A stretch of DNA of 45,817 bases from Candidatus Nomurabacteria bacterium RIFCSPLOWO2_01_FULL_33_24 (GTDB lineage: Bacteria; Patescibacteriota; Minisyncoccia; Phycocordibacterales; MFUP01), in assembly GCA_001785735.1 (NCBI GenBank), contig MFUP01000006.1:3384-49200 (forward strand). Direction: 5' to 3'. Both the position numbers and the translations under genes were made by a program. This document shows positions 23,481-42,563 of this stretch, piece by piece. Position 1 is the first letter of the stretch. Every line of letters starts with the position of its first letter. The notes below the pieces were generated by a model that ran no database searches, was not told the DNA's origin, and worked only from the letters and a program-made list of their open reading frames with translations.

Positions 23481-26400
23481 TTATCTAAATAAACTAGTCA
23501 AAGCATCAAGAATTTTCGCTGTTAGTGTCTTTGTGGGGATTTTATAATTTGAATAGCTAAATTGACAGAAGTTTGTTGACCCATCCCAAGTTCCCCCAGA
23601 GTTAGCGCAATCAGTTGCTGGATCTCCTCCTCCGCCTCCTCCGCTATTTCCACAATCTGAAGAACAAGTAGTTGGGGTTTCATTTCCCTGACAAGCGCCA
23701 TCCCCACAATAAAATGAAGTTCCCCCACAATCAGAAGCGCAAGAAGAAGAATCTTCAGTTGAGGCGCAAACATTGTCTCCGCAATAACCGGAGTAACTCC
23801 CTCCTCCACCACTACCACAATCTACTGGGCATGATGATTGGGTTTCATAACTATCACAAGTTCCGTTGCCACAATAAGCACCATTACTTCCGCTCATATT
23901 ACAATAACTTCCATCCCAAGTTCCCCCAGCTTGAGCGCAAGCAGTTGATCCGCTTCCGCTTGATCCACAATCCGAATAACAACTGCCACTACTCTCCCCA
24001 GAATCACAAGTGCCGTTATAGTTACAAGCAGTTGATCCGCTTTCGCTTGATCCACAATCCGAATAACAACTGCCACTACTCTCCCCAGAATCACAAGTGC
24101 CGTTATAGTTACAAGCAGTTGATCCGCTTCCGCTACTACAACCACTTACCCAAGTAGTGGAACAACTTTTTACCGTGCTTGTTCCTGGGTAAACATAATT
24201 ATTCATTGAACTATCAAAAAGAGCATTTCCCATACTATGACAACCACTTCCTAATAGATTTATTTGTTCTGAAGTACAGGTGTTTGTCTCCCCGGTATTA
24301 TTGCTTGATGTTTGACACCATCCATTAGTGGTACTGCCCACATTCCATGTCCAGACACAACTATTATTTTGACAAGCGCTTTGACTAGTATAGTTCCCGC
24401 AACTTGAGGTTAAACTAGAATTACAATCAGTAGGACAAGAAGAAGATTCTCCTGATCCACAAACATTATCTCCGCAATAACCGGAATATTGTTCCTGTAA
24501 AGGACAAGTGATTACATTTGTTCCAGAAATATCATAACAAAGACCATTATAATCTTCTTGGGTATTCATACAATAACTTCCACTATCATAATGAGGGTGA
24601 AATCCAGAAGGACATTTTCCAGAAGTTGTTCCTCCACAATCCGTTGGACAAGAATTAACCGTTTCTGTTCCATCACATACATAATTTCCGCAATATCCTC
24701 CACTATAACTTTTCGGTTGGCAGTAAGAATTACCACTATCAGAAGGAGCATACCACTCACAAGTAGTATCAGCAGTACAAGCTGATTGAGTAGTAAGAAT
24801 CCCACAACCCACTTGGTTATAATTTATTGCTGGGCAAGTTATTTTAGTGGTCCCATCAGTTCCCAAACAAGTCCCACTATAGTTTTCGCTATCATTGATA
24901 CAGAAACCACCTGACTCGGGATGCCAGTGAAATCCAGAAGGACATTTTCCAACAGTAGCACTACAATCTCTTGAACAAGAAGTTACTGATTCATCCCAGT
25001 TACAGGTTCCATCTCCGCAATAACCTTGGGTTGATCCTGAAATACAAGTATTAGTTATTGAATCCCAATAAGCTGGAGCAGGACACTTTGGTTGATTGTT
25101 AATTCCCACTGGACAATTTTCTGTGCTGTAAGTGTTTGAATCTAAATATCCAGGATAAGTTAAACTACAAGAACGAACATTATTTAATTGACAATATCTT
25201 ACCCCGTTTGTATTCCACATACTATAAGCAAATCCCGGACATGAATTTTTATCCCCAGGATATTCTTTTTGCCCACAATCTTTAAAACAGGTGGATTGGG
25301 TCTCGTTACTATCGCACCAACCATTACCACAATAACTCTGTAGAGGTTCTGGAGAACGAAAATCAATACATTCTCCAAAAATCAGACAACCATCAATCCC
25401 TATTTTTTCTTCTCGATATTGGCTACTACCACAAGGCTCCGGGTAATAACTAGGACAGGCTTTAGGATAAGGATATGGCGCTGGTGTTGTTGGTTGGGGA
25501 ATTGGACGAACATAACAAAGCGTCTTAGCTTTTTCAAAATCCCCGGTATTAATTGCCTTTATACATTCATTAGTAGGACCCTGATTAAAATCCACAGGCG
25601 GTTTATAATACGGATCAGTTCGGTACGGATCAGTTCGGAGAGAATCAATATCCTTGTAATAATTAGGATCAAATATTTCCGTCTGAACAGGAGGAGGAAC
25701 ATTTAGACGATTGGTGTATTTCAGATAAACCTCACCGGCGTCAAAAATTCCCTTTTGAGCTCCAAAAGTCATACACTCAATAGAGTTATTTGGATCATTA
25801 CAGAATTTAGAACATGATTCTGGTCCAGTACAACCGCCTGGCCCAGCCATATTTATTGGTGATTCAAAATCATCGGTTTCAAACTCCTCAGGATTAAACT
25901 CTTTAGATTTAAATTGGTCAAATATTTCTCTTCTTTTTATGTCTTGATTAACATGAAACTCAAACTCTTTTTTTATATTGTCAACCACAAATTGAGCATT
26001 AGGATGTTCCTGGGATAATTTTTCAAAAGTCCCATCACTTAATATTTCTTTGGTTGCTTGTAAGCATTTATTTCCAATTTCTGGATTAAAAGCCCCTTCC
26101 TCGCATTTCATTGGGGAAAATCCCATTTTTTCTTTCATTATTTGGTCAATTTTTCTTCCGACATCAAACTCACCCTTAAATTTATCAGGAATAAACTGCT
26201 CGCAAGCCATTGGGTCAAGAATACATTTGTTAAAATCAATATCAGTATTTTCTATGGTTCTCATAAATTCTAAAGACTTGTCAAACTCTCCTTTAGTAAT
26301 GAAACCCATTTTTACTCCAATTTCTCCGCAAGCGGTCGCTAACCCAAAATTAATCTTTTTATCCGGAGCAAAGGCCTTATCGCAAGTTTTTTTTATATTG

Positions 26401-27293
26401 CTTTTCCCGATAATTTCTTTTCCGTCTGGGGTTATTAAAACCATATCTTCCATTCCTTTTTTCTGATAATTGATTACTTCAGTTACTTGTTTTCTGGCCA
26501 AAGATAATTCTTCTGTTCCTTCCGCCCCAAAAATTTCAATAGCGATAATATCGCAAATGGCCGGGGAATTGGGACGGAGGCAAACAAGCCCCGCTTCTTC
26601 AGCCGTTATTACTCCAAGTTCTGCATATTGTCCTTTAGCTAAGGCATTTTCTAATTTAATAATTGGGTCAATATTTTTAACCCTACTCAATTTTTCTTTA
26701 GGAATGAAAATATCAATAGACTCAGATTCTTCCTCACTCAGCATCTTGGTTGCCTCTAAGCAACTAATCATTTGTTTTTTATTTAATTTATTAAAAGGCA
26801 AACTACAAATATCCATTGTTACCCCGGCCTTTTCGACAGTCGTTATAATTTTTTCTGAAGCATCTATTTTTTCCTTTGTTAATCCTAATTCTTCTGCAAA
26901 TTTTTTATCTTTCTTAGCAATTTCTTTAGCTAGTTCTAATATTTTATTATTTAATTCTTCTGGTTTTACTTCATTTAATTCTCCCAATACTTTGTCTTTA
27001 TATGATTGAGCAAAATCAAGCTGACTCTCAGTATAGACATTGTGTTTTTCGGCTAAATTAATTACTTCATCAAATTCGGTGTCTAGTTTTTCATCAAAGA
27101 TTTGTTTACATTCATCTTTAGCGGTACATCCTAAGTCTTCTGCTAAAGATTGTAATTCTGTCGGGATATCACTTTCTAGATTTTCCGTCTGGGCTAAAAC
27201 TATTGTTCCTAAAAATACAAAACCAGCTACTAAAAGAACTACAAACAATATCTTTTTATAGCTATTAATGATACTCATAATATTTTTGTTCAT
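23481..27293 (-). CDS. Large secreted Cys-rich repeat protein (CGxGxCDxxETxxxCxxDC repeats)
   Basis: 1270 aa, N-terminal signal/TM 'ILFVVLLVAGFVFLGTIVLAQ', helical N-half, C-half with many repeats such as CGNGWCDSNETQSTCFKDCG and CGDGTCNWDESVTSCSRDC. Confidence 0.85.
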   Translation of the reverse strand: MNKNIMSIINSYKKILFVVLLVAGFVFLGTIVLAQTENLESDIPTELQSLAEDLGCTAKDECKQIFDEKLDTEFDEVINLAEKHNVYTESQLDFAQSYKDKVLGELNEVKPEELNNKILELAKEIAKKDKKFAEELGLTKEKIDASEKIITTVEKAGVTMDICSLPFNKLNKKQMISCLEATKMLSEEESESIDIFIPKEKLSRVKNIDPIIKLENALAKGQYAELGVITAEEAGLVCLRPNSPAICDIIAIEIFGAEGTEELSLARKQVTEVINYQKKGMEDMVLITPDGKEIIGKSNIKKTCDKAFAPDKKINFGLATACGEIGVKMGFITKGEFDKSLEFMRTIENTDIDFNKCILDPMACEQFIPDKFKGEFDVGRKIDQIMKEKMGFSPMKCEEGAFNPEIGNKCLQATKEILSDGTFEKLSQEHPNAQFVVDNIKKEFEFHVNQDIKRREIFDQFKSKEFNPEEFETDDFESPINMAGPGGCTGPESCSKFCNDPNNSIECMTFGAQKGIFDAGEVYLKYTNRLNVPPPVQTEIFDPNYYKDIDSLRTDPYRTDPYYKPPVDFNQGPTNECIKAINTGDFEKAKTLCYVRPIPQPTTPAPYPYPKACPSYYPEPCGSSQYREEKIGIDGCLIFGECIDFRSPEPLQSYCGNGWCDSNETQSTCFKDCGQKEYPGDKNSCPGFAYSMWNTNGVRYCQLNNVRSCSLTYPGYLDSNTYSTENCPVGINNQPKCPAPAYWDSITNTCISGSTQGYCGDGTCNWDESVTSCSRDCSATVGKCPSGFHWHPESGGFCINDSENYSGTCLGTDGTTKITCPAINYNQVGCGILTTQSACTADTTCEWYAPSDSGNSYCQPKSYSGGYCGNYVCDGTETVNSCPTDCGGTTSGKCPSGFHPHYDSGSYCMNTQEDYNGLCYDISGTNVITCPLQEQYSGYCGDNVCGSGESSSCPTDCNSSLTSSCGNYTSQSACQNNSCVWTWNVGSTTNGWCQTSSNNTGETNTCTSEQINLLGSGCHSMGNALFDSSMNNYVYPGTSTVKSCSTTWVSGCSSGSGSTACNYNGTCDSGESSGSCYSDCGSSESGSTACNYNGTCDSGESSGSCYSDCGSSGSGSTACAQAGGTWDGSYCNMSGSNGAYCGNGTCDSYETQSSCPVDCGSGGGGSYSGYCGDNVCASTEDSSSCASDCGGTSFYCGDGACQGNETPTTCSSDCGNSGGGGGGDPATDCANSGGTWDGSTNFCQFSYSNYKIPTKTLTAKILDALTSLFR
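23941..24134 (-). repeat. 87-bp in-frame tandem repeat within the Cys-rich protein gene
   Basis: Units start at 23941 and 24028 with a partial third at 24115; near-identical; encode GSTACNYNGTCDSGESSGSCYSDCGSS-type 29-aa units. Confidence 0.9.
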
Positions 27294-28651: not shown

Positions 28652-29197
28652 ATGTCCAAACAAGAATTAAAATCAGAAAGAAATTGGTATGCTATTCACA
28701 CTTATGCTGGATATGAAAATGCTGTCTCCCGAAATTTATTACAAAGGATTGAATCTCTGGGAATGCAAGACAAGATTTTTAATGTTATTGTTCCAATTGA
28801 AAAAAAAATAAAAATAAAGGCGGGGAAAAGAACCGAGGTTGAAGAAAAAATTTACCCCGGTTATGTTTTAGTAGACATGATTGTGACTGATGATTCTTGG
28901 TATGTTGTTAGAAATACCCCCCGAGTGACTGGTTTTGTTGGTTCGGGAGTTCATCCAGTCCCCTTAAACAAAAAAGAAGTAGATTCTCTATTTAAAAAAA
29001 TGGAAACCGATGTTACCAAACATAAGATTGACTTCAAAATAGATGAAAATGTTATTATCATTGACGGCCCTTTTAAGGAACAAGAAGGTAAAATTAACGA
29101 GATTGATGAAGAAAGGGGAAAAATAAAAGTTTTAGTATCAATGTTTGGGAGAGAAACACCATTAGAGTTAGATTTTCTTCAAATTAAAAAAATATAA
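28652..29197 (+). CDS. nusG: Transcription termination/antitermination protein NusG
   Basis: '[22 protein letters not shown]', '[32 protein letters not shown]', KOW '[15 protein letters not shown]'. Confidence 0.95.
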
Positions 29198-29199
29198 TT

Positions 29200-29625
29200 A
29201 TGGCAAAAAAAATATTAAAAAAAATAAAACTTCAAATTCCGGCTGGTAAAGCTACTCCGGCTCCACCACTAGGGCCAACCTTGGGTCAAGCTGGTGTTGC
29301 TATTCAAGATTTTGTAAATAGATTTAACGAAGCGACTAAAAATAAAGTTGGAGAAACATCCTCGGTAATAGTTTCTGTTTACGAAGACAGAAGTTTTGAT
29401 TTCATTATAAAAACACCGCCTGTTTCAGGTTTGATTTTAAAAGCGGCTGGAATAGAGAAAGGTTCTGGTAAAAATTTAGTTAAAAAAGCTGGAAAGATTA
29501 CCAAAGCCCAAGTGAAAGAAATAGCTGAGACAAAAATGCCCGATCTCAATGCTAATGATATTGAAACGGCGATGAAAATAGTAGAAGGAAGCGCTCGCTC
29601 TATGGGGATAGAAGTGGTTGGATAG
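29200..29625 (+). CDS. rplK: 50S ribosomal protein L11
   Basis: '[39 protein letters not shown]', '[28 protein letters not shown]'. Confidence 0.95.
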
Positions 29626-29638
29626 ATTTAAAATTTTT

Positions 29639-30301
29639 TTATAATAAATATTTTTTTATATCTAAAAGAGATGTTAGTTGAGGACAATTGATGCTCTTAA
29701 TTTTTTCATCAACATTAACCAAGATTGACTCAATTCCCATTTCCTTCGGAATAAGATAATCGGACATTAGCTGATCACCGATATACAAAAATTCATTCGG
29801 TTTTTTGTTGGGATATTGAGAAAGCCAAAATTTATAAGCTGATTGATCTGATTTTGAAAAATTATCTTTAGAGATAATGTGTGAAAAGATTTTTTCTTTT
29901 AATCCCAATTTTTCTAATTTATCTTTTGCATTTTTAAAATTTGAACCAGTTATTAAGTCTATATTTTTATATTTATTTTTTAATTTTTCTAATAAATTAA
30001 TTACTTTCTTATCTTTAACCAAAAATTTTGAAAGATCAGCTTTTTCCAAAGCTTCCTGAATTTTATTTTGAGCGGCTGGTATCCCTAATACTTTTAAAGA
30101 TTGACTCCCGCTTAATCCTCTTCCATTTTTATACAAATCCCCAAATAGTTTCTTTGCTTTTAGAAGAGATACTTTTTTAATTTCACTAATTTTTTTATAA
30201 AGATATATTTGGATTAATTCATTTACCTCGGGTGATTTTGGATAAAGTGTTTGATCTAAATCAAAACCGATAATTTTTATTACATTTTTGTAATATATCA
30301 T
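29639..30301 (-). CDS. HAD-superfamily hydrolase, resembling pyrimidine 5'-nucleotidase subfamily
   Basis: 'IGFDLDQTLYPKSPEVNE', 'DLITGSNF', 'EFLYIGDQLMSDYLIPKEMGIESILV'. FDLDxTLYP start resembles SDT1-type enzymes. Confidence 0.8.
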   Translation of the reverse strand: MIYYKNVIKIIGFDLDQTLYPKSPEVNELIQIYLYKKISEIKKVSLLKAKKLFGDLYKNGRGLSGSQSLKVLGIPAAQNKIQEALEKADLSKFLVKDKKVINLLEKLKNKYKNIDLITGSNFKNAKDKLEKLGLKEKIFSHIISKDNFSKSDQSAYKFWLSQYPNKKPNEFLYIGDQLMSDYLIPKEMGIESILVNVDEKIKSINCPQLTSLLDIKKYLL

Positions 30302-32697
30302 TTTTGATAATTTATATAATAAATTGCTATTTCACCCAAAGGATATTTTAGTCTTTTAGAATATTTTGTTAAAAGGTAATTACAAATTTGCTCATCTTCT
30401 TTTATTTGAGAAAGAGAGTGGTTCATAAAAACAGCTGTTCCATAAACTTTATGACCAAATACATTTGCCTGAAAAAAGGCCAAGAGATCAGATTGGGGAT
30501 TAGTTTTCCCAGCGTAGTATTCTGTTAAAATTGGATTATTATGCATTACCCCTTTCTTTTCAAGATAAGTAATTGCTTTTTCTATTATATTTATCCCTTC
30601 GTAATTTTCTAATCTATCTAATATTTTACTTTCTGGCCTTTTATCTATTTTTTGTGCTTCTTTAATAAAATAAGCCACTCCACTATTATTATCTAAATCC
30701 AAAATATTATCATTTAATTTTATCGGGCCACTCGATTTGTCAATTTCACCAACTGGTTTTGAAGGTTCAGAAAGTATTTTTTTTGTTCTTTGCTCTTCCG
30801 TTAACAATAAAATATTTGCCCTATTAGAAAGAACATACATATCACCACTTTTTAATCCCAACCCGTTTTGAATGGAAGAAAAATAAGCATCATGAAGGCC
30901 AAAAATATTTTCTGGATAAGCATTCACTATATTATGAGCTCTAACGATATGAAATGAATAGAGAGTGTTGTTCTTGATAAAAAAAATGTCGTGGGTTAAA
31001 CAAGGATCATGAGTAAATTTTTCTTTTTTTGTATCTGGATCAACGGAAATTGTCATATCATTTATCGGGTCAAATCGCTGGATGATGGTAGCTTTTTTCT
31101 TGTTTTGGTTAAGTATTTTAATTGTTTCTTTTAGTTGATCAAAGCCAAAATATGATCGGGTTCTTTCCCCGTATGAATATGACCCATCATGGTCATATCT
31201 TAGCAATTGACGTTTATATTCTTCTCTCATCGCCTCGGTGCTATATTCTCCTTGTTTATATAATATTGGCATTTTTTTAAGAGAGCTTGAAACTTTTCGG
31301 TAAATTGTTAAAACAGAAGCTGTTCGAGATAATCCCTTCCAAACATCGCCATGTTCCTCGGTAATCCCCCGGATATATATTTTTTGTAAAATTCCTTTAT
31401 GGACATCAAGAAAATTATCACCATCTATGATAATAGAAGGTAAACTATCTTTGTTTATTTTAAAAATAAGATCAAAGTCCTGAATAAATGAATAATTATT
31501 TTTAGCCGCAATATTTGCTCTAGCCGCTTGAGTACCAATATCTATTCTGTGTAAAATATCCATTTCATAATTTTCAAATTGGTTGCTATCCGCTAAATAT
31601 TTAAGAAGGGGAGTGAGAGAAGGAGAAATTAATTCAAAAACTTCTTTACAAACATCAAAAGCAAGGCAAGTAACTGAAATATTATTATCCCTAGTATTTA
31701 CCCGATAATAAAATTTTTTATCAGTGATCATTTTTACTTGTGATTCAAGGGGAATTTTTTCTTTTCCTACCAAAGTATTTTTTTGAACAAATAGTTTAAA
31801 TGGAGTATCATTTATAATCTCAGTACTTATCCGGCCAAGTTCTGCTCCAAGTAATAATTGTTCCATTGGGGACAATAAATTCTTTTTTTCTTTTAGAAAT
31901 TTCATTAATGAATAAGATAAAAGAAAAACATCATCTGATGATATAAAATATATTTTATTACCAATTTTTATATCAAGTCGCACTTGTTTATTGTCCCTAG
32001 CGACTTTAAATGGTACTTTGAATAAGTCCTTAAACTGTTTCACCCTGATTTTAGGTGGTTGGAGGTGTTGAAAATCTTTCGGATTTAATTTAGTAGCAAC
32101 TTTCTTTTTTTTGGGTAACTTGGAAATTATCTCAATCATTTCGTTTAAGGAATCATAATATATTTTCTTTTTCTCATTTACCCCTCGCAAAGCTTCATAT
32201 AGTTCAAGGCTAATTTTTGGTTTTAACCACTGTAAATATGAATTAAGAATTTTACCACTCCCCTTATTTTTATGAGTAAAAATTGGAAGAACAATAATAT
32301 CTTCTCGAAACAGATTAATAATATCCTTATTGATATTAGGATAATGAGGAGAACGAGCAATACCATTCATTATATAATTTCCCTTCTTTTCAGGATCAAT
32401 TCCATTTAAAAGAACCTGAAGAAGATTAGTGCTTGGGGCAAAAGTTTCTGATTCCTCAGAAAAAAGAATCAAATATTTCATGGTTGGGTGAGCGAGGGAA
32501 TTAATTATCATTCTTTCTACTCCATCTCGATTAACGATTAATGGTCCAAGCACAGAGGTATTTATTCTATTTTTTTCTTCCAATTCATTTAATACTTGTC
32601 CGGGAGCGGTAGTATTTGTACATATTCCAACCACTCCCAACCTTCCTTCTGCGGGAATTGTTAAAATTGCATCAATAATTGGAAAACCTTCATTCAT
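30298..32697 (-). CDS. MtrA/DUF4346-like domain fused to a thymidylate-synthase-like domain
   Basis: N-term 'GPLIVNRDGVERMIINSLAHPTMKYLILFSEE...LLQVLLNGID...GIARSPHYPNINKDIINLFREDIIVLPI' matches MtrA-type pattern. C-term 'SYGERTRSYFGFDQLKETIKIL...HDPCLTHDIFFIKNNTLYSFHIVRAHNIVNAYPENIFGLHDAYFSSI' matches the ThyA Cys/Arg/Asn core. Confidence 0.7.
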   Translation of the reverse strand: MNEGFPIIDAILTIPAEGRLGVVGICTNTTAPGQVLNELEEKNRINTSVLGPLIVNRDGVERMIINSLAHPTMKYLILFSEESETFAPSTNLLQVLLNGIDPEKKGNYIMNGIARSPHYPNINKDIINLFREDIIVLPIFTHKNKGSGKILNSYLQWLKPKISLELYEALRGVNEKKKIYYDSLNEMIEIISKLPKKKKVATKLNPKDFQHLQPPKIRVKQFKDLFKVPFKVARDNKQVRLDIKIGNKIYFISSDDVFLLSYSLMKFLKEKKNLLSPMEQLLLGAELGRISTEIINDTPFKLFVQKNTLVGKEKIPLESQVKMITDKKFYYRVNTRDNNISVTCLAFDVCKEVFELISPSLTPLLKYLADSNQFENYEMDILHRIDIGTQAARANIAAKNNYSFIQDFDLIFKINKDSLPSIIIDGDNFLDVHKGILQKIYIRGITEEHGDVWKGLSRTASVLTIYRKVSSSLKKMPILYKQGEYSTEAMREEYKRQLLRYDHDGSYSYGERTRSYFGFDQLKETIKILNQNKKKATIIQRFDPINDMTISVDPDTKKEKFTHDPCLTHDIFFIKNNTLYSFHIVRAHNIVNAYPENIFGLHDAYFSSIQNGLGLKSGDMYVLSNRANILLLTEEQRTKKILSEPSKPVGEIDKSSGPIKLNDNILDLDNNSGVAYFIKEAQKIDKRPESKILDRLENYEGINIIEKAITYLEKKGVMHNNPILTEYYAGKTNPQSDLLAFFQANVFGHKVYGTAVFMNHSLSQIKEDEQICNYLLTKYSKRLKYPLGEIAIYYINYQK

Positions 32698-33547
32698 TTT
32701 TCCAAAAATTATTTAAATAGTCTGATAATAAATATTTAGTGAATATATTAATATTTTTTGAAAAGCAATAAATTTTCGGATTAATATTAAAATGATTTGC
32801 CATTTCATCCAAAAATTGGAGACAACAACCACATGGAACCACAGGACCCTCATGTTTATTAGAAGTTAACCCAATGTGAGTAATATTGTAATCCCTATTC
32901 ATGAAAGCTGAAAGGAGAACTGTCATTTCAGCATGAATAGTTGTTTTTTGATCATATCCGGAATATTGGGCGCCAAAATAAATATTTTCTTTAGTAATTA
33001 TGGCTACTCCATATTTTGTCGCCGAATCATGTGTTGGAAAATTTCTCTCTAGTGCTTTTTGAGACCATTCTCCCAATAACTCTTCTGGTTTTTTATCTTT
33101 TTCCCTTTTAATTTTATTTTCGGAAAGTATTCTTTTTTTTATACTCTCTAAATTAGTAGCTGGTGGACAATAAAAAGGAATAATACTGGTGATATCTTTT
33201 GTAAAAAATAATTTTTTCCCCTCCTTATTTATTACTTTATAAGATAATTTGTTCTTAGTTCGACGAACATAATCAATTAAAATTTTTATTATTATTGGAG
33301 ATGGATTATAATCAACATCTTCTGTTAAAGTAATAATCTCATTTAAGCCAAAATCATTATGTTGTACCCCCTTAATAAGTACCCCTTGCTCTGAGGAAAT
33401 AAATAATAAATTAGTTTTTGATTCAATTATTCCGCTTAAATATTTTTTTCCAGATAAAGAAAAACCAAGAGAAACAGTTCGAGGATTAGTATCTTTTTTT
33501 AAGACACATAAATCAAGAGATTTCTTTAAGGTTGATAAAATATCCAT
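32690..33547 (-). CDS. Two-domain cytidine deaminase-like protein
   Basis: C-domain 'TIHAEMTVLLSAF' and 'VVPCGCCLQFLDEMANHF' (HAE ... PCxxC). N-domain looks like a degenerate CDA fold. Confidence 0.75.
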   Translation of the reverse strand: MDILSTLKKSLDLCVLKKDTNPRTVSLGFSLSGKKYLSGIIESKTNLLFISSEQGVLIKGVQHNDFGLNEIITLTEDVDYNPSPIIIKILIDYVRRTKNKLSYKVINKEGKKLFFTKDITSIIPFYCPPATNLESIKKRILSENKIKREKDKKPEELLGEWSQKALERNFPTHDSATKYGVAIITKENIYFGAQYSGYDQKTTIHAEMTVLLSAFMNRDYNITHIGLTSNKHEGPVVPCGCCLQFLDEMANHFNINPKIYCFSKNINIFTKYLLSDYLNNFWKNE

Positions 33548-33556
33548 GTTATTTTA

Positions 33557-34462
33557 TCAGAACAAATTGGTATTACTTCTTAGCTTACTAACACTCAATC
33601 CGGCAGTTTCCCAATCATAATGAAGAATTTTTTTAATCAAATCATGAAATAAATGAATTTTGTCTCGTTCTAATCTATGAAACATTTGCTCAGAACGTTT
33701 ACTAGAAAGTCTAATAGTAGGCCTAAAAGGCATTGGAAAAGCATAATAAGGGATAAGTGAATTATCTCCTGCCTCAACCAAAATAACTGAAATAGGTTTT
33801 CTTAAGTGTTCAATGGCATAGTCAATCCGATGACTTCCGTCACAGATTATATAAAAATCATTTAGACCATTATATTGAATACCGTAGTTTATCAGAGAAG
33901 CATTTGAATTAAAAATATCAAATTGTTTTATAAAACTTACTTCATCTATGAAAAAGTTTTCTAAATAACGATTAGCAAGATGGTGTAAATTTTCTTTGGC
34001 GTCAAGAGTATAAAAATTGTTAAATCTTTGACTAAGTTTATCAAGATCAATAAAACCACCTCTTAAGTGATAAGTATGTTTCTCAATTATCGGTGGAAGC
34101 ATATGAAATTCACCGCGATCTTCCCAATCATATTTTACAGCGTACTTTAATTCATTTATTCTCTCTCCTTCGTTCTTTAAAAAATCATCAACAGTTTTGA
34201 TTATTTCAAGTTGATTTTCATAAATTGTTGGTTGAGGGGAAAATAGAGGATAGTGGACACCATTTATTTCTATTGTAGGAGATACCCCCATTGACTTTGA
34301 TGGATGAACGGTGACTATAGAAAATTTTGCTTTTTTGTAAGGTTTTATTTTTTCTTTCTCTTTATTATATAAGCCCCTAAAGCTAATGTTTTTTAGAAAT
34401 TCCTTTAATTTTTCAAAAGAGACTATCTCTTTTAGGGTTAATTTATGCTTCATAATATCCAA
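33557..34462 (-). CDS. ParB/sulfiredoxin-like 'DGSHR' domain protein, function unknown
   Basis: 'FYIICDGSHRIDYAIEHLRKPISVILVEAG' resembles the ParB-like DGxHR motif; conserved-looking C-term 'PTIRLSSKRSEQMFHRLERDKIHLFHDLIKKILHYDWETAGL'. Confidence 0.5.
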   Translation of the reverse strand: MDIMKHKLTLKEIVSFEKLKEFLKNISFRGLYNKEKEKIKPYKKAKFSIVTVHPSKSMGVSPTIEINGVHYPLFSPQPTIYENQLEIIKTVDDFLKNEGERINELKYAVKYDWEDRGEFHMLPPIIEKHTYHLRGGFIDLDKLSQRFNNFYTLDAKENLHHLANRYLENFFIDEVSFIKQFDIFNSNASLINYGIQYNGLNDFYIICDGSHRIDYAIEHLRKPISVILVEAGDNSLIPYYAFPMPFRPTIRLSSKRSEQMFHRLERDKIHLFHDLIKKILHYDWETAGLSVSKLRSNTNLF

Positions 34463-34529
34463 GTATATCTTAATTTTTCACTAATGAAAACAGTCTCACT
34501 TTTACTTTAATCATGTTAAAATGGCTTTT

Positions 34530-35714
34530 ATGAAAGACAAACAAATAGAAAAACTTATTAAACTAGAACAAAAAAGACAGAAAAATGTCATTAATTTGAT
34601 TGCCTCGGAGAATTATGTTTCTAAAGATATTTTAAAGACTCTTGGATCTCAACTCACAAATAAATATGCCGAAGGGTATTCCAAACTTCGCTACTATGGC
34701 GGTAATAAATTTGTTGATAAGATAGAAAATTTGTGTCAGAAAAGAGCTTTAAAACTTTTTAAACTTTCTTCCAAAAAATGGCATGTCAATGTTCAACCTC
34801 TTTCTGGTTCGCCAGCTAATTTGGCTGTTTATCTGGCTTTGGTTCCCTTTAGCCACTCACAGGGCAAGTCACGGGGAAAAATTATGGGAATGTCTTTATC
34901 TCATGGAGGTCATTTAACTCATGGCAGTAAAGTTTCTGTTTCAGGAAAATTTTGGAAACGAATTTCTTACGGAGTGAATAAAAAAACAGAACTTTTAGAT
35001 TATCAAGAAATAAAAAAAATTGCTCTCAAAAATAAACCTCATTTAATTATAGCTGGTTTCACTGCTTATTCTCGGAAAATTGATTTTAAAAAATTTAGAG
35101 AAATAGCTGATTCTTGTGGCGCTTATTTTATGGCTGACATGGCTCATCTGGCTGGCTTAATAGCCGGAGGAGCATTTCCTTCACCCTTTAAATATGCCGA
35201 CGTTGTTACTACTACCACCCATAAAACTTTGAGAGGGCCAAGGTCCGGATTAATCTTTTGTCGAAAGGAATTAGCTTCTAAAATAGATAAATCGGTTTTT
35301 CCAGGGCTTCAAGGAGGTCCCCATTTGAACCAAATTGCCGCCTCAGCGGTGGCCTTAAAAGAAGCTATGAGTCCCTTATTTAAAAAATATACTCAACAAA
35401 TAATTAAAAACTCTAGAATCTTGGCTGAAGAATTAAAAAAACTTGGTTGGCGGATAATTTCAAAAGGAACTGACAATCATTTAGTCTTAGTTGATACTTG
35501 GATGAACGGAAAAGGGATAGGAGGAAAAGAAGCTAGCGAAAAATTAGAAAAAGAAAATATTATAGTTAATAAAAATACGATTCCATTTGATACTAGATCC
35601 CCAATTGATCCCTCAGGGATTCGTCTAGGGACAGCGGCTGAAACCACTAACGGATTAAAAGAAAAAGATTTTATTAAAATTGCTAAAAAAATTGACAATA
35701 TTTTAAGAAAATAA
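34530..35714 (+). CDS. glyA: Serine hydroxymethyltransferase
   Basis: 'NLIASENYVSKDI', 'YAEGYSKLRYYGGNKFVDKIE', 'VTTTTHKTLRGPRSGLIFCRKE' (PLP Lys), 'PSGIRLGTAAETTNGL'. Track start 34521. Confidence 0.94.
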   Translation: MKDKQIEKLIKLEQKRQKNVINLIASENYVSKDILKTLGSQLTNKYAEGYSKLRYYGGNKFVDKIENLCQKRALKLFKLSSKKWHVNVQPLSGSPANLAVYLALVPFSHSQGKSRGKIMGMSLSHGGHLTHGSKVSVSGKFWKRISYGVNKKTELLDYQEIKKIALKNKPHLIIAGFTAYSRKIDFKKFREIADSCGAYFMADMAHLAGLIAGGAFPSPFKYADVVTTTTHKTLRGPRSGLIFCRKELASKIDKSVFPGLQGGPHLNQIAASAVALKEAMSPLFKKYTQQIIKNSRILAEELKKLGWRIISKGTDNHLVLVDTWMNGKGIGGKEASEKLEKENIIVNKNTIPFDTRSPIDPSGIRLGTAAETTNGLKEKDFIKIAKKIDNILRK

Positions 35715-36953: not shown

Positions 36954-37376
36954 ATGAAACTCAAAATAAAAAAACTGCATAAAGATGCGAAACTGCCGAA
37001 GTATCATCATCCCGGAGATGTCGGGCTGGATTTGTATGCGATGGAAGACATTGTTATTTTGCCTGGCGAGCATGCCAGGATTTGGCACGGATTCGCGCTT
37101 GAATTTCCAGAAGGATACGCCGCCATCATAAAAGATAAATCAAGTATTTCTAAGAATGGGCTTCATACTATGGGTGGAGTTTTTGACGCTGGTTATCGCG
37201 GAGAATACAACACGCATTTAGTAAATTTATCCGATAAACCCTATACTATTGAAGCGGGCGACAAAGTTTCTCAACTTGTTATTTTTCCAGTCGCGCTTGT
37301 AGAAGTTGAAGAAACGGGCACACTTAGCGAATCTGTCCGCGGACAGGGAGCTTTCGGATCAACTGGAAAAAAATAA
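36954..37376 (+). CDS. dut: dUTP diphosphatase
   Basis: 'HPGDVGLDLYAMED', 'IIKDKSSISKNGLHTMGGVFDAGYRGEY', 'RGQGAFGSTGKK' dUTPase motifs. Confidence 0.92.
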   Translation: MKLKIKKLHKDAKLPKYHHPGDVGLDLYAMEDIVILPGEHARIWHGFALEFPEGYAAIIKDKSSISKNGLHTMGGVFDAGYRGEYNTHLVNLSDKPYTIEAGDKVSQLVIFPVALVEVEETGTLSESVRGQGAFGSTGKK

Positions 37377-39098: not shown

Positions 39099-42000
39099 AT
39101 GGAAGATAAAAATAACGACAAGTCAGAAGCAGCGCTTCGAGAAGAGCGTATTTTAGAGTTTTGGGAAAAGAATAAAATTTTTGAAAAATCTTTGGAAAAA
39201 CCCGCACCGCGCGGCGAATTTATTTTTTACGAAGGTCCGCCAACTGCCAACGGCTATCCGGGGATTCACCATCTTGAATCTAGGGCTTTTAAAGATTTAA
39301 TTCCTCGTTTTAAAACTATGCAAGGTTTTTTTGTTCCCCGAAGAGCTGGTTGGGATACCCATGGTTTACCAGTTGAAATTGAAGTAGAAAAAGAATTAGG
39401 AATAAAATCAAAAAAAGAAATAGAAGAACTTGGAATTACTGAATTTAATAAAAAATGTAAAGAGAGTGTCAATAAATATGTAAAAAAGTGGGGAGAATTC
39501 ACAGACCGAATTGGTTTTTGGCTTGACCAAGAAAATTCCTATTCTACTTTTAACCCAAGTTATATGGAATCTATTTGGTCAATTATAAAAAAAATAGAAG
39601 ACCAAGGATTACTCTATAAAGATTACAAAGTTCTGCCGTGGTGTCCGCGTTGTGAAACAGCTTTATCCAGTCATGAATTAGCTCAAGGATATAAAGGGGT
39701 TGAAGATCCAGCTGTTTTTATAAAATTTAAACAGATAGACAAAGATGAATATTTTTTAGCTTGGACAACTACTCCATGGACATTACCGGGGAATATTGCC
39801 TTGGCGGTTGGTGAAGCTGTTGACTATGTAAAAGTTAAAGTTGACGGAGAAGACTTATGGTTAGCTAAAAGTCGGGCAAAAGAAATCTTACCAAATGTAA
39901 AAATTTTAGAAGAAATTAAAGGAAAGTATTTAATTGGAAGGAAATACGAACCATTATTTTCTTACTTATCTGATCTGTTGCCTGAAAATGAGAAATTTAA
40001 ACTAATGACTGCTTATCAAATTTATCCGGCTGATTTTGTTTCCACTGAAGAAGGAACAGGGATTGTTCATACGGCGGTAATGTATGGAGCAGATGATTTT
40101 GATTTGGGAACAAAATTTGATTTACCAAAATATCATCTTATAAATGAAAAAGGAGAATTTATAAAAGAAACCGGAACTTTAGCGGGGAAATTTGTTAAAG
40201 ATGCGGACAAAAATGTAATAGAAGAATTAAAGAAAAAGAATCTTTTATTTAAAGAAGAAAGAATAACCCACACCTATCCGTTCTGTTGGCGTTGTCAGAC
40301 TCCTTTGATTTATTTTGCCCGTGATTCCTGGTATATTCGGGTGTCCAATTTAAGGCAGGAATTAATTGATGAAAACCAGAAAATTCATTGGGAGCCAGAA
40401 TATATTAAAAATGGACGATTTGGAGAATGGCTTAGAGAAGTAAAAGATTGGGCTATTTCTCGAGAGCGATACTGGGGAACACCCTTACCAATCTGGCAGT
40501 GTAATAATTGTGATCATAAAGAAGTTATTGGAAGCATTGAAGATATAAAAAAGAAAACTACTAATGGAAATAAATATTTTGTCATGCGTCACGGAGAAGC
40601 ACTCAACAATACAGAAAATATCGCGTCAGGTAAAAATCCCAAATGGGATAAACTTACAGATAATGGTAAAGAACAAGTAAAAAACAAAATACCAGAAATA
40701 GAAAAATTAAATATAGATTTTATTATAAGTTCCCCGTTTAATAGAACAAAACAAACTTCCGAAATTATTTCTAAGGGGATAGGGAATAAAGAAATTGTTT
40801 TTGATGAAAGAATGGAAGAAATTGACATAGGTGTTTTTGAAGATAAAGATATTAAAGAATATAGAAAATTTAATTCAACGATTGAGGAACATTTTATTAA
40901 AAGACCTGAAAATGGAGAAAATCTTATGGATGTAAAATGTCGTGTAGGTGATTTTATTTATGAGATAAATAAAAAATATAATAATAAAAATATTTTAGTG
41001 GTTGCCCACAGCGAATCTTCTTTTATGCTTTTTTCTTCGGCCCACGGATTAACTCAACAAGAAACAAAAGATTTATTAGATAAGGACGACGAAAATATAA
41101 CTTTTATTAATAATGCAGAAATTAAAGAATTAGATTTTTCTCCAATTCCTCATAATGAAGAATACGAATTAGATCTTCATCGTCCTTATATAGATAGAAT
41201 TGTTTGGAAATGTGAAAAATGCAAAGGGGAAATGGAAAGAGTGAAAGAAATAATTGATGTTTGGTTTGATTCAGGGGCGATGCCTTTTGCCCAAGATCAT
41301 TATCCCTTCGAAAATAAAAATTTTGTGGATGAATTTGGTTATCCTGGCGACTATATTGCTGAAGCCATTGATCAAACACGAGGTTGGTTTTATACTCTTC
41401 ACGCCATTGGTATTTTAATGGAGAAAGGAAAGGCCTATAAAAACGTTGTTTGTCTTGGACATATTTTAGATTCAAAAGGAAAGAAAATGTCTAAATCAAT
41501 TGGGAATATGGTTAATCCTTGGGAAATGATAGATAAATATGGCGTAGATACATTACGTCTGTGGATGTATTCAGTTAATCAACCGGGAGAGCCAAAAAAC
41601 TTTGATGAAATAACGGTTAAAGAGAATAAAAGAATTTTGACCATTCTTGAAAATATTGTTAAGTTCTATGAACTTTACAAGGAAAATGCTTCTCGATTTA
41701 GCTCGGGATGGTCATCCAGTAATAATGTATTAGATGACTGGATTCTTACCAAACTAAATAAATTAATATTTGATTCCACTAATAATTTAAATAATTACAA
41801 AATATTAGAACCAACTCGAGAGATAAAAGATTTTATTTTAGATTTTTCTCAATGGTACATTAGACGATCAAGGGATAGACTTAAGAGTGAAAACGAAAAT
41901 GACAAGCAATCAGCCTTAATAACCACTAAATTTGTTTTATTAGAATTATCTAAACTTATGGCCCCATTTACCCCCTTTATGGCGGAAAATGTTTACAAAA

Positions 42001-42563
42001 GAACAGGAGGTGATTTAGAAAGTGTCCATTTGGAAAAATGGCCATCAGTTTTAAAAACTTTCTGGGGGAAAGTAAAAGTAGATTTAGAATTAATAGAAGA
42101 AATGAAAAAAGTACGAAAAATTGTTTCCTTTGGGTTAGAAGCGCGAGAAAAAGAAGGAATAAAAGTTAGGCAACCATTATCTGAAATTCAAATAAAAAAA
42201 AATCTTTCTAAAAAATATTTTGATCTCATAAAAGATGAATTAAATGTAAAAGAAGTTATTTTTGATAGCAAGATGAAAGAAGAAATAAAATTGAACACAA
42301 ATATTTCTCCGGAATTAAAACAAGAAGGACAATTTAGAGAGTTAACCAGAAGTATTCAGGAATCGAGAAAAAAAGAAAACCTAACGCCAAGTGATCAAAT
42401 TATTTTAACTATTGAAACCAATAAGGATGGGCAAGAATTAATTAAGAAATTTGAAAATAATCTAAAAAAAGTTGTTTTGTCAAAAGAAATAAAATTTGAA
42501 CAAAATAATAGTGAAGAAATAATGATAAACAATTTATCTTTCAAAATTAAAATAGAAAAATAA
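39099..42563 (+). CDS. ileS: Isoleucyl-tRNA synthetase with inserted histidine-phosphatase domain
   Basis: 'FYEGPPTANGYPGIHHLESRAFKDLIPRFKTMQGFFVPRRAGWDTHGLPVE', 'LAWTTTPWTLPGNIALAVG', 'DSKGKKMSKSIGN'; insertion 'YFVMRHGEALNNTEN...ISSPFNRTKQTSEII...ILVVAHSESSFML'. Confidence 0.93.
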   Translation: MEDKNNDKSEAALREERILEFWEKNKIFEKSLEKPAPRGEFIFYEGPPTANGYPGIHHLESRAFKDLIPRFKTMQGFFVPRRAGWDTHGLPVEIEVEKELGIKSKKEIEELGITEFNKKCKESVNKYVKKWGEFTDRIGFWLDQENSYSTFNPSYMESIWSIIKKIEDQGLLYKDYKVLPWCPRCETALSSHELAQGYKGVEDPAVFIKFKQIDKDEYFLAWTTTPWTLPGNIALAVGEAVDYVKVKVDGEDLWLAKSRAKEILPNVKILEEIKGKYLIGRKYEPLFSYLSDLLPENEKFKLMTAYQIYPADFVSTEEGTGIVHTAVMYGADDFDLGTKFDLPKYHLINEKGEFIKETGTLAGKFVKDADKNVIEELKKKNLLFKEERITHTYPFCWRCQTPLIYFARDSWYIRVSNLRQELIDENQKIHWEPEYIKNGRFGEWLREVKDWAISRERYWGTPLPIWQCNNCDHKEVIGSIEDIKKKTTNGNKYFVMRHGEALNNTENIASGKNPKWDKLTDNGKEQVKNKIPEIEKLNIDFIISSPFNRTKQTSEIISKGIGNKEIVFDERMEEIDIGVFEDKDIKEYRKFNSTIEEHFIKRPENGENLMDVKCRVGDFIYEINKKYNNKNILVVAHSESSFMLFSSAHGLTQQETKDLLDKDDENITFINNAEIKELDFSPIPHNEEYELDLHRPYIDRIVWKCEKCKGEMERVKEIIDVWFDSGAMPFAQDHYPFENKNFVDEFGYPGDYIAEAIDQTRGWFYTLHAIGILMEKGKAYKNVVCLGHILDSKGKKMSKSIGNMVNPWEMIDKYGVDTLRLWMYSVNQPGEPKNFDEITVKENKRILTILENIVKFYELYKENASRFSSGWSSSNNVLDDWILTKLNKLIFDSTNNLNNYKILEPTREIKDFILDFSQWYIRRSRDRLKSENENDKQSALITTKFVLLELSKLMAPFTPFMAENVYKRTGGDLESVHLEKWPSVLKTFWGKVKVDLELIEEMKKVRKIVSFGLEAREKEGIKVRQPLSEIQIKKNLSKKYFDLIKDELNVKEVIFDSKMKEEIKLNTNISPELKQEGQFRELTRSIQESRKKENLTPSDQIILTIETNKDGQELIKKFENNLKKVVLSKEIKFEQNNSEEIMINNLSFKIKIEK

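Follow-up and report, generated by a model that had tools for sequence, protein, structure and literature searches.

The known routes to thymidylate (dTMP) depend on two unrelated enzymes, ThyA and ThyX (PMC10733785). In a 45,817-nucleotide stretch of contig MFUP01000006.1 from Candidatus Nomurabacteria bacterium RIFCSPLOWO2_01_FULL_33_24 (the window), we found a four-gene cassette that encodes a ParB-like protein, a two-domain deaminase-like protein, a fusion of MtrA and ThyA domains and a HAD-family phosphatase. We hypothesize, with a probability of about 0.55 and on the strength of sequence comparison, that this cassette is an alternative de novo route to dTMP/dTTP that replaces ThyA/ThyX in one set of Paceibacteria. 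The four open reading frames (ORFs; 34462-33557, 33547-32690, 32697-30298 and 30301-29639) all lie on the minus strand, with a 9-nt gap between the ParB-like and deaminase genes followed by overlaps of 8 and 4 nt. The ORF listing thereby confirmed the cassette as it had been laid out in a preliminary description of this DNA, and the four family assignments proposed there were also supported, through Pfam and NCBIfam matches and, for MtrA and the ThyA superfamily, through a fold search as well. In the ORF listing the ParB-like gene starts with a TTG at 34462, but an in-frame ATG at 34453 agrees better with its orthologues.

The cassette is present in ten genomes, the window's and nine others, which span several Paceibacteria lineages and GC contents of ~31-59%, and the cassette proteins of the other nine are 30-66% identical to those of the window. 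Gene order (ParB-like, deaminase, MtrA/ThyA, HAD) is kept at one chromosomal site, with rplK-nusG on one side and glyA/dut/argS on the other. This recurrence in nine other genomes, the synteny on which the preliminary description had staked its case, indicates that the cassette is not a product of chance. HAD is the fourth gene in 8 of the 10 loci; the L028 locus stops at a contig end inside the deaminase gene, and at L026 the fourth place is taken by a different HAD gene on the opposite strand (L026:12307-12912). In the window, the cassette is flanked by convergent rplK, whose stop lies 13 nt from that of the HAD gene, and by divergent glyA. In most carriers glyA adjoins the cassette, or is separated from it by dut or one small gene, and dut is near the cassette in most. 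At L025, an HD-domain 5'-deoxynucleotidase-like gene (L025:7323-7916) stands beside the cassette.

When 197 genomes of the order were searched at the protein level, full-length orthologues of the 799-aa fusion turned up in G442 (57% identity) and G438 (55%), while a phylum sample of 380 genomes yielded, besides the window, only distant MtrA or ThyA matches; as a single query the fusion found nothing in genome and viral scans. Further loci were located via a three-row alignment of the ParB-like protein, with which a scan of GTDB genomes returned eight loci (G442 again among them) from Vogelbacteria, Zambryskibacteria, Kaiserbacteria and other Parcubacteria. Pairwise identities of the cassette proteins correlate with those of NusG/RplK (r 0.70-0.77, Mantel p 0.001-0.004). 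This parallel divergence fits vertical inheritance, despite the spread in GC content.

Carriers of the cassette lack the standard thymidylate enzymes. ThyA over its curated cut-off is absent from 9 of the 10 carriers, including two with a known completeness of 96% and 98%, and ThyX (PF02511) over cut-off is absent from all ten. Among 194 sampled genomes of the order, ThyA was found in 127 (weak matches to MtrA-ThyA fusions included), ThyX in 49 and both in 3, and 172 of the 191 non-carriers (~90%) have at least one of them. Absence of both enzymes is associated with carrier status (Fisher p 5e-8, uncorrected for relatedness); among sampled genomes at least 90% complete, both are missing from 2/2 carriers and 16/168 non-carriers (p 0.01). 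In none of the carriers did dCTP deaminase, thymidine kinase or dihydrofolate reductase (DHFR) score over cut-off; weak dCTP deaminase matches are consistent with the related dUTPase (in the window, dut itself), and thymidine kinase gave two weak matches below cut-off. Of the genomes tested for DHFR, it was found in 7 of 8 with ThyA, 1 of 6 with ThyX and 4 of 10 with relatives of the MtrA or ThyA type, and in this respect carriers look like ThyX genomes. Many ThyX matches of the order sample lie in frames of 430-670 aa (e.g. G452, G549, G456 and G466), several with two Thy1 matches, which suggests fused or duplicated ThyX in this order. Non-carriers without ThyA and ThyX over cut-off include G390, G394, G406 and G414 (97-100% complete), which may have further routes or be auxotrophs.

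Two carriers, G438 (794 kb) and G442 (781 kb), were read almost completely, together with one ThyA-bearing control, G132 (601 kb). All three encode a class II ribonucleotide reductase (RNR) of one family, for which the triphosphate-reductase model scores far above the diphosphate model in G438, yet below cut-off, and motifs identify FolD and Ung in both carriers. RNR, FolD and Ung point to cells that make their own deoxynucleotides and guard their DNA against uracil. With RNR, folate one-carbon enzymes and Ung present, a dU-to-dT step should be needed, and the cassette fusion is the only protein recognised in the carriers that could perform it. This need, the missing dCTP deaminase and the deaminase of the operon together favour a route from dC to dU to dT. 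No dUTPase was detected in G438, whether by motif or in a tblastn search with the window's dut. Neither G438 nor G442 yielded a dTMP kinase homologue in motif scans or one-sequence phmmer searches, whereas a thymidylate kinase (PF02223, 3e-21) is encoded in the single control genome, G132. G438 (C1:624712-625269) and G442 (C1:9054-9617) have in common a small, unassigned AAA_17/18 kinase-like protein (GITGTIGAGKGT) that could be the dTMP kinase of the carriers.

These gene inventories also bear on the idea that the carriers take thymine nucleotides from a host or from imported DNA, and that the four proteins form a salvage or clean-up operon for incoming or damaged pyrimidine nucleotides. Patescibacteria are usually held to be symbiotic and without nucleotide biosynthesis (PMC12455944), ~19/191 non-carriers likewise lack ThyA and ThyX over cut-off, a deaminase paired with a HAD phosphatase resembles salvage or house-cleaning, and dTMP released from imported DNA would not require thymidine kinase. 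However, both well-covered carriers encode RNR and FolD, neither has a recognisable dTMP kinase with which to use salvaged dTMP, and a ThyA core with a conserved nucleophile would be superfluous. We thus regard salvage as unlikely.

The proposed dTMP route centres on the fusion, in which an MtrA domain is followed by two DUF4346-like units, then a ThyA core and lastly a second, degenerate ThyA-like core. Its MtrA domain matches PF04208 over the gathering score (1.9e-6, 28.1 versus 25 bits; 7/8 members match). The methanogen-type ThyA model TIGR03283 reaches 9e-19, below its cut-off, and canonical ThyA (PF00303) gave no match over the gathering score, with 1/8 members matched at E 0.075. Because the structural model is of moderate confidence (predicted local distance difference test, pLDDT, 63.5; predicted template modelling score, pTM, 0.40), only domain-level fold matches were used. 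These comprise MtrA (E 2.4e-4, probability 1.00) and the ThyA superfamily (probability 0.9-1.0, E ~0.01-0.03), including dCMP hydroxymethylases and the CMP hydroxymethylase MilA besides ThyA. When the ThyA core is aligned directly with canonical ThyA by hhalign, the match is weak (probability 39%, E 3e-4), but ordinary MtrA-ThyA fusions connect the two (E 1e-17 and 1e-16). Against such fusions the ThyA core aligns at E 1.1e-17, the second DUF4346-like unit at E 1.2e-7 and the degenerate C-terminal core, compared with their ThyA core, at probability 88% and E 2.7e-6; in the model, the same strand-strand-helix-strand pattern recurs in this degenerate core. The duplication of the DUF4346-like unit is proposed from repeated secondary structure and the match of the second unit to ordinary fusions; direct hhalign between the two units gave no significant match (probability 1%), and the assignment of the first unit is tentative. 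Cys566 (PC motif, DPCLTHD) is kept in 8/8 members, Arg586 and Asn597 are invariant, and the ThyA core appears to be active.

Several observations weigh against a thymidylate route. In the ThyA core, canonical RSxD is replaced by RAHN (8/8) and THxY by ANIL, with NIL at the HxY positions (8/8), and the His that follows the catalytic Cys in canonical ThyA is Leu. In E. coli ThyA, residues at these positions touch folate and ribose. The substrate or cofactor site is thus likely altered, and with these residues lost the substrate or chemistry may differ. The cobalt ligand of MtrA is His84 (PMC4915002), and the corresponding residue is Phe86 in 8/8 aligned members; on this ground we discarded the idea that the MtrA domain transfers methyl groups in corrinoid fashion via the usual His. 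Together, these changes leave the chemistry uncertain and the activity a prediction. At the level of genomes, ~10% of non-carriers also lack both ThyA and ThyX, one carrier has a ThyX fragment below cut-off, and most carriers are metagenome-assembled genomes (MAGs), several of them incomplete, in which absence depends on the models used and on completeness. Carriers may moreover be one related lineage in which the absence of thyA counts once, and if gene losses came down from a common ancestor, the Fisher p value of 5e-8 would be far too small. Finally, the preliminary description had asked about a second thyA or thyX, and the window's own MAG (67% complete), while without ThyX over cut-off, contains a truncated canonical thyA, its 5' part, where a 5,349-bp contig (G000 C11, L055) ends; a gene for a 1057-aa vitamin-B12-type RNR precedes it. 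In tetranucleotide usage, this atypical short contig correlates less well with the window (0.805) than any other piece compared (0.854-0.963), which makes mis-binning possible.

The altered substrate site also raises the question of whether the ThyA-like core modifies a pyrimidine nucleotide, by hydroxymethylation or in some other way, for DNA modification or a small molecule, in the manner of phage hydroxymethylases, MilA and BcmA. The fold matches to dCMP hydroxymethylases and MilA are consistent with this idea, and nucleoside-antibiotic clusters contain pairs of ThyA-like proteins and hydrolases. Yet the locus is chromosomal and diverges like core genes, the carrier loci show no linked glycosyltransferase, DNA-modifying gene or transporter, no homologue of the ParB-like protein was found in viral contigs or phages, and the dTMP source of the carriers would stay unexplained. 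A modified-pyrimidine system is hence, in our view, decidedly improbable. A phage hypermodification cassette was rejected for want of a phage or mobile context and of a homologue of the ParB-like protein in the viral contigs and phages searched; phage matches to the fusion were limited to weak ones between its ThyA core and phage ThyA. No PADLOC model for anti-phage defence matched any of the four proteins. Of the pyrimidine-based interpretation first offered for this DNA, the dedicated pyrimidine operon and the unusual dTMP supply find support, the latter because carriers lack standard dTMP enzymes over cut-off, while phage base hypermodification and nucleoside-antibiotic synthesis do not, given the core-chromosome location, the NusG/RplK-like divergence and the lack of viral homologues in our searches.

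The remaining three proteins retain features of their families. The deaminase matches PF00383 (3.6e-6, 27.2 versus 25 bits for the window member; 8/8 members match) and arose by domain duplication (hhalign probability 94%, E 1.2e-7); its C-terminal domain has an intact zinc site (H205-x-E207, C239-x-x-C242), while its N-terminal domain is a dead duplicate without zinc ligands. It scores below the equivalog cut-off of the curated cytidine deaminase model TIGR01354 (36.9 versus 113.65 bits). The HAD protein is over cut-off for PF13419 (6e-12, 46.5 versus 23.8 bits) with motifs I-IV intact (DxDQT, T118, K150, GD), and below the equivalog cut-off for pyrimidine 5'-nucleotidase (TIGR01993, 3e-11, 43.5 versus 142.9 bits). 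The ParB-like protein matches Parb-CE (PF24392) in 9/9 orthologues (best 2.4e-6), although the window member only just exceeds the gathering score (6.9e-5, 23.3 versus 23 bits) and over the last third of the model only; its DGxHRxDY motif is invariant among orthologues. Its AlphaFold model is of moderate confidence (pLDDT 71.7), and Foldseek found no match at E <= 0.001 in PDB or BFVD; the list of weak matches includes ParB and sulfiredoxin entries (sulfiredoxin TMt 0.42-0.48), none significant. A profile of this protein matched nothing in 383 further genomes of the class, and in our searches it occurs only in cassettes, which supports its earlier designation as the novel component.

Family scans detected neither a helix-turn-helix (HTH) domain nor PF02195 in the ParB-like protein, and no parA-like neighbour was recognised at the carrier loci; on these grounds a role in ParABS partition was rejected. 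A broader possibility is that it is a segregation or regulatory CTPase that is co-transcribed with pyrimidine genes and senses the level of CTP or dCTP. ParB folds are frequently orphan and have CTP, ATP or GTP as ligands (PMC12704722), and this protein is the best conserved of the four among carriers. The same missing ParA neighbour, HTH and PF02195 matches, along with its strict linkage to metabolic enzymes, make such a CTPase very unlikely.

We infer the reactions of the proposed dTMP route and their order, including a methyl reduction without DHFR, the cargo of the MtrA/DUF4346 part and the role of the ParB-like protein, from observed anatomy, conservation, synteny, intact catalytic motifs and absence of standard enzymes. 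The cassette would be a vertically inherited, self-contained path from cytosine to thymine deoxynucleotides. First, the C-terminal deaminase domain would convert a dC nucleotide to a dU nucleotide in place of the missing dCTP deaminase, and the neighbouring dUTPase could supply dUMP. The ThyA core would then attach a one-carbon unit via Cys566. This unit might come from methylenetetrahydrofolate (CH2-THF), supplied by serine hydroxymethyltransferase from glyA next door, or from a carrier on the MtrA/DUF4346 part; because the carriers lack DHFR, dihydrofolate is probably not produced. Serine hydroxymethyltransferase is a source of CH2-THF. The ParB-like protein would perform a nucleoside triphosphate-dependent step, either a SerK/SbnI-like phosphotransfer, possibly for the missing dTMP kinase, or a nucleotide switch. 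Finally, the HAD protein may dephosphorylate surplus or wrong pyrimidine nucleotides.

In a bolder form, the cassette would replace dCTP deaminase, ThyA/ThyX, DHFR and dTMP kinase together as a third way to thymine nucleotides, either by acting on triphosphates (dCTP to dUTP to dTTP, after a triphosphate-type RNR) or with the ParB-like protein as dTMP kinase. The near-complete carriers without a recognisable thymidylate kinase, set beside the ThyA-bearing control that has one, support this form; dut beside the cassette in most carriers counts against a dUTP intermediate, and we consider the bolder form as a whole improbable. If the alternative dTMP route is real, it is a third solution to an essential step, in which a ThyA-superfamily enzyme works with MtrA/DUF4346 parts, its own deaminase and a ParB-fold partner, free of DHFR. 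The ParB fold would gain a place in nucleotide metabolism, and DNA synthesis in ultra-small bacteria without the known enzymes would be explained.

Table 1. Cassette genes, fusion domains and flanking genes in the window.
Feature	Position	Strand	Basis
ParB/sulfiredoxin-like protein, ~298 aa, first cassette gene	33557..34453	-	Parb-CE match, invariant DGxHRxDY
Two-domain cytidine-deaminase-like protein, 285 aa	32690..33547	-	PF00383, domain duplication by hhalign
Fusion MtrA - DUF4346-like x2 - ThyA - degenerate ThyA core, 799 aa	30298..32697	-	PF04208, TIGR03283, fold search, hhalign
MtrA domain, fusion residues ~1-143	32268..32697	-	PF04208, fold search
ThyA core, fusion residues 425-660	30718..31425	-	Alignments
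Degenerate second ThyA-like core, fusion residues ~675-799	30301..30675	-	hhalign, secondary structure of model
HAD-family phosphatase, pyrimidine-5'-nucleotidase-like, 220 aa	29639..30301	-	PF13419, TIGR01993 below cut-off
glyA (serine hydroxymethyltransferase), context, divergent neighbour	34521..35714	+	PF00464 1e-160
dut (dUTP diphosphatase), context	36954..37376	+	TIGR00576 6e-33, over cut-off
nusG-rplK, constant flank on HAD side	28652..29625	+	Locus comparison

Elsewhere in the window, positions 39099-42563 (+) encode a 1154-aa class I tRNA synthetase of the IleRS/ValRS type, whose catalytic domain is interrupted at residues 494-658 by a histidine-phosphatase domain (PF00300, 8.7e-28). 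Positions 23481-27293 (-) encode a secreted-looking, Cys-rich repetitive protein of 1270 aa without a Pfam match at E 0.001.

The systems with which the cassette can be compared include ordinary MtrA-ThyA-DUF4346 fusions of ~480-600 aa in other Patescibacteria (L004, L005, L008, L012 and L017-L020; L003 has separate MtrA and ThyA genes). Searches of the open-access literature found nothing relevant on MtrA-ThyA fusions, DUF4346 or Patescibacteria without thyA/thyX. These fusions (~500 aa) likewise combine MtrA, ThyA and DUF4346-like parts in a single chain, but in the order MtrA, ThyA, C-terminal DUF4346-like unit, and with RSxD-like and HIY motifs kept (as in L004). A dCTP-deaminase-like gene, named from its sequence alone, adjoins both the L004 fusion and the split genes of L003; the L004 fusion is not part of a deaminase/ParB/HAD cassette. 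We read this as the usual dTMP context for distant relatives of the fusion and count it in favour of the dTMP route.

With ThyA (PF00303) and methanogen-type ThyA (TIGR03283) the cassette core shares the superfamily, by profile and predicted fold, as well as the nucleophile Cys, the phosphate-site Arg after it and the PxN Asn; it differs in lacking RSxD and THxY, in scoring below family cut-offs and in lying inside a 799-aa fusion with a second degenerate core, and its carriers differ from ThyA genomes in having no DHFR over cut-off. The Rossmann-type domain of MtrA from the methanogen methyltransferase (PDB 5laa, 5l8x) is shared by sequence and fold, whereas all eight aligned cassette members have Phe in place of its cobalamin ligand His84. 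The HxE and CxxC zinc site of cytidine/dCMP deaminases (PF00383) is found in the C-terminal domain of the cassette protein, which departs from them in its zinc-less N-terminal duplicate and in GQYS in place of the nucleoside cytidine deaminase substrate motif. The ParB-fold kinases SerK/SbnI and sulfiredoxin share with the ParB-like protein a stand-alone build, the DGxHR motif, the lack of an HTH and perhaps the ParB/sulfiredoxin-type fold; the cassette protein is set apart by its length of ~298 aa and by having no significant sequence or structure match. Finally, ThyX offers a functional parallel, since it replaces ThyA, usually without DHFR, and belongs to an unrelated protein family.

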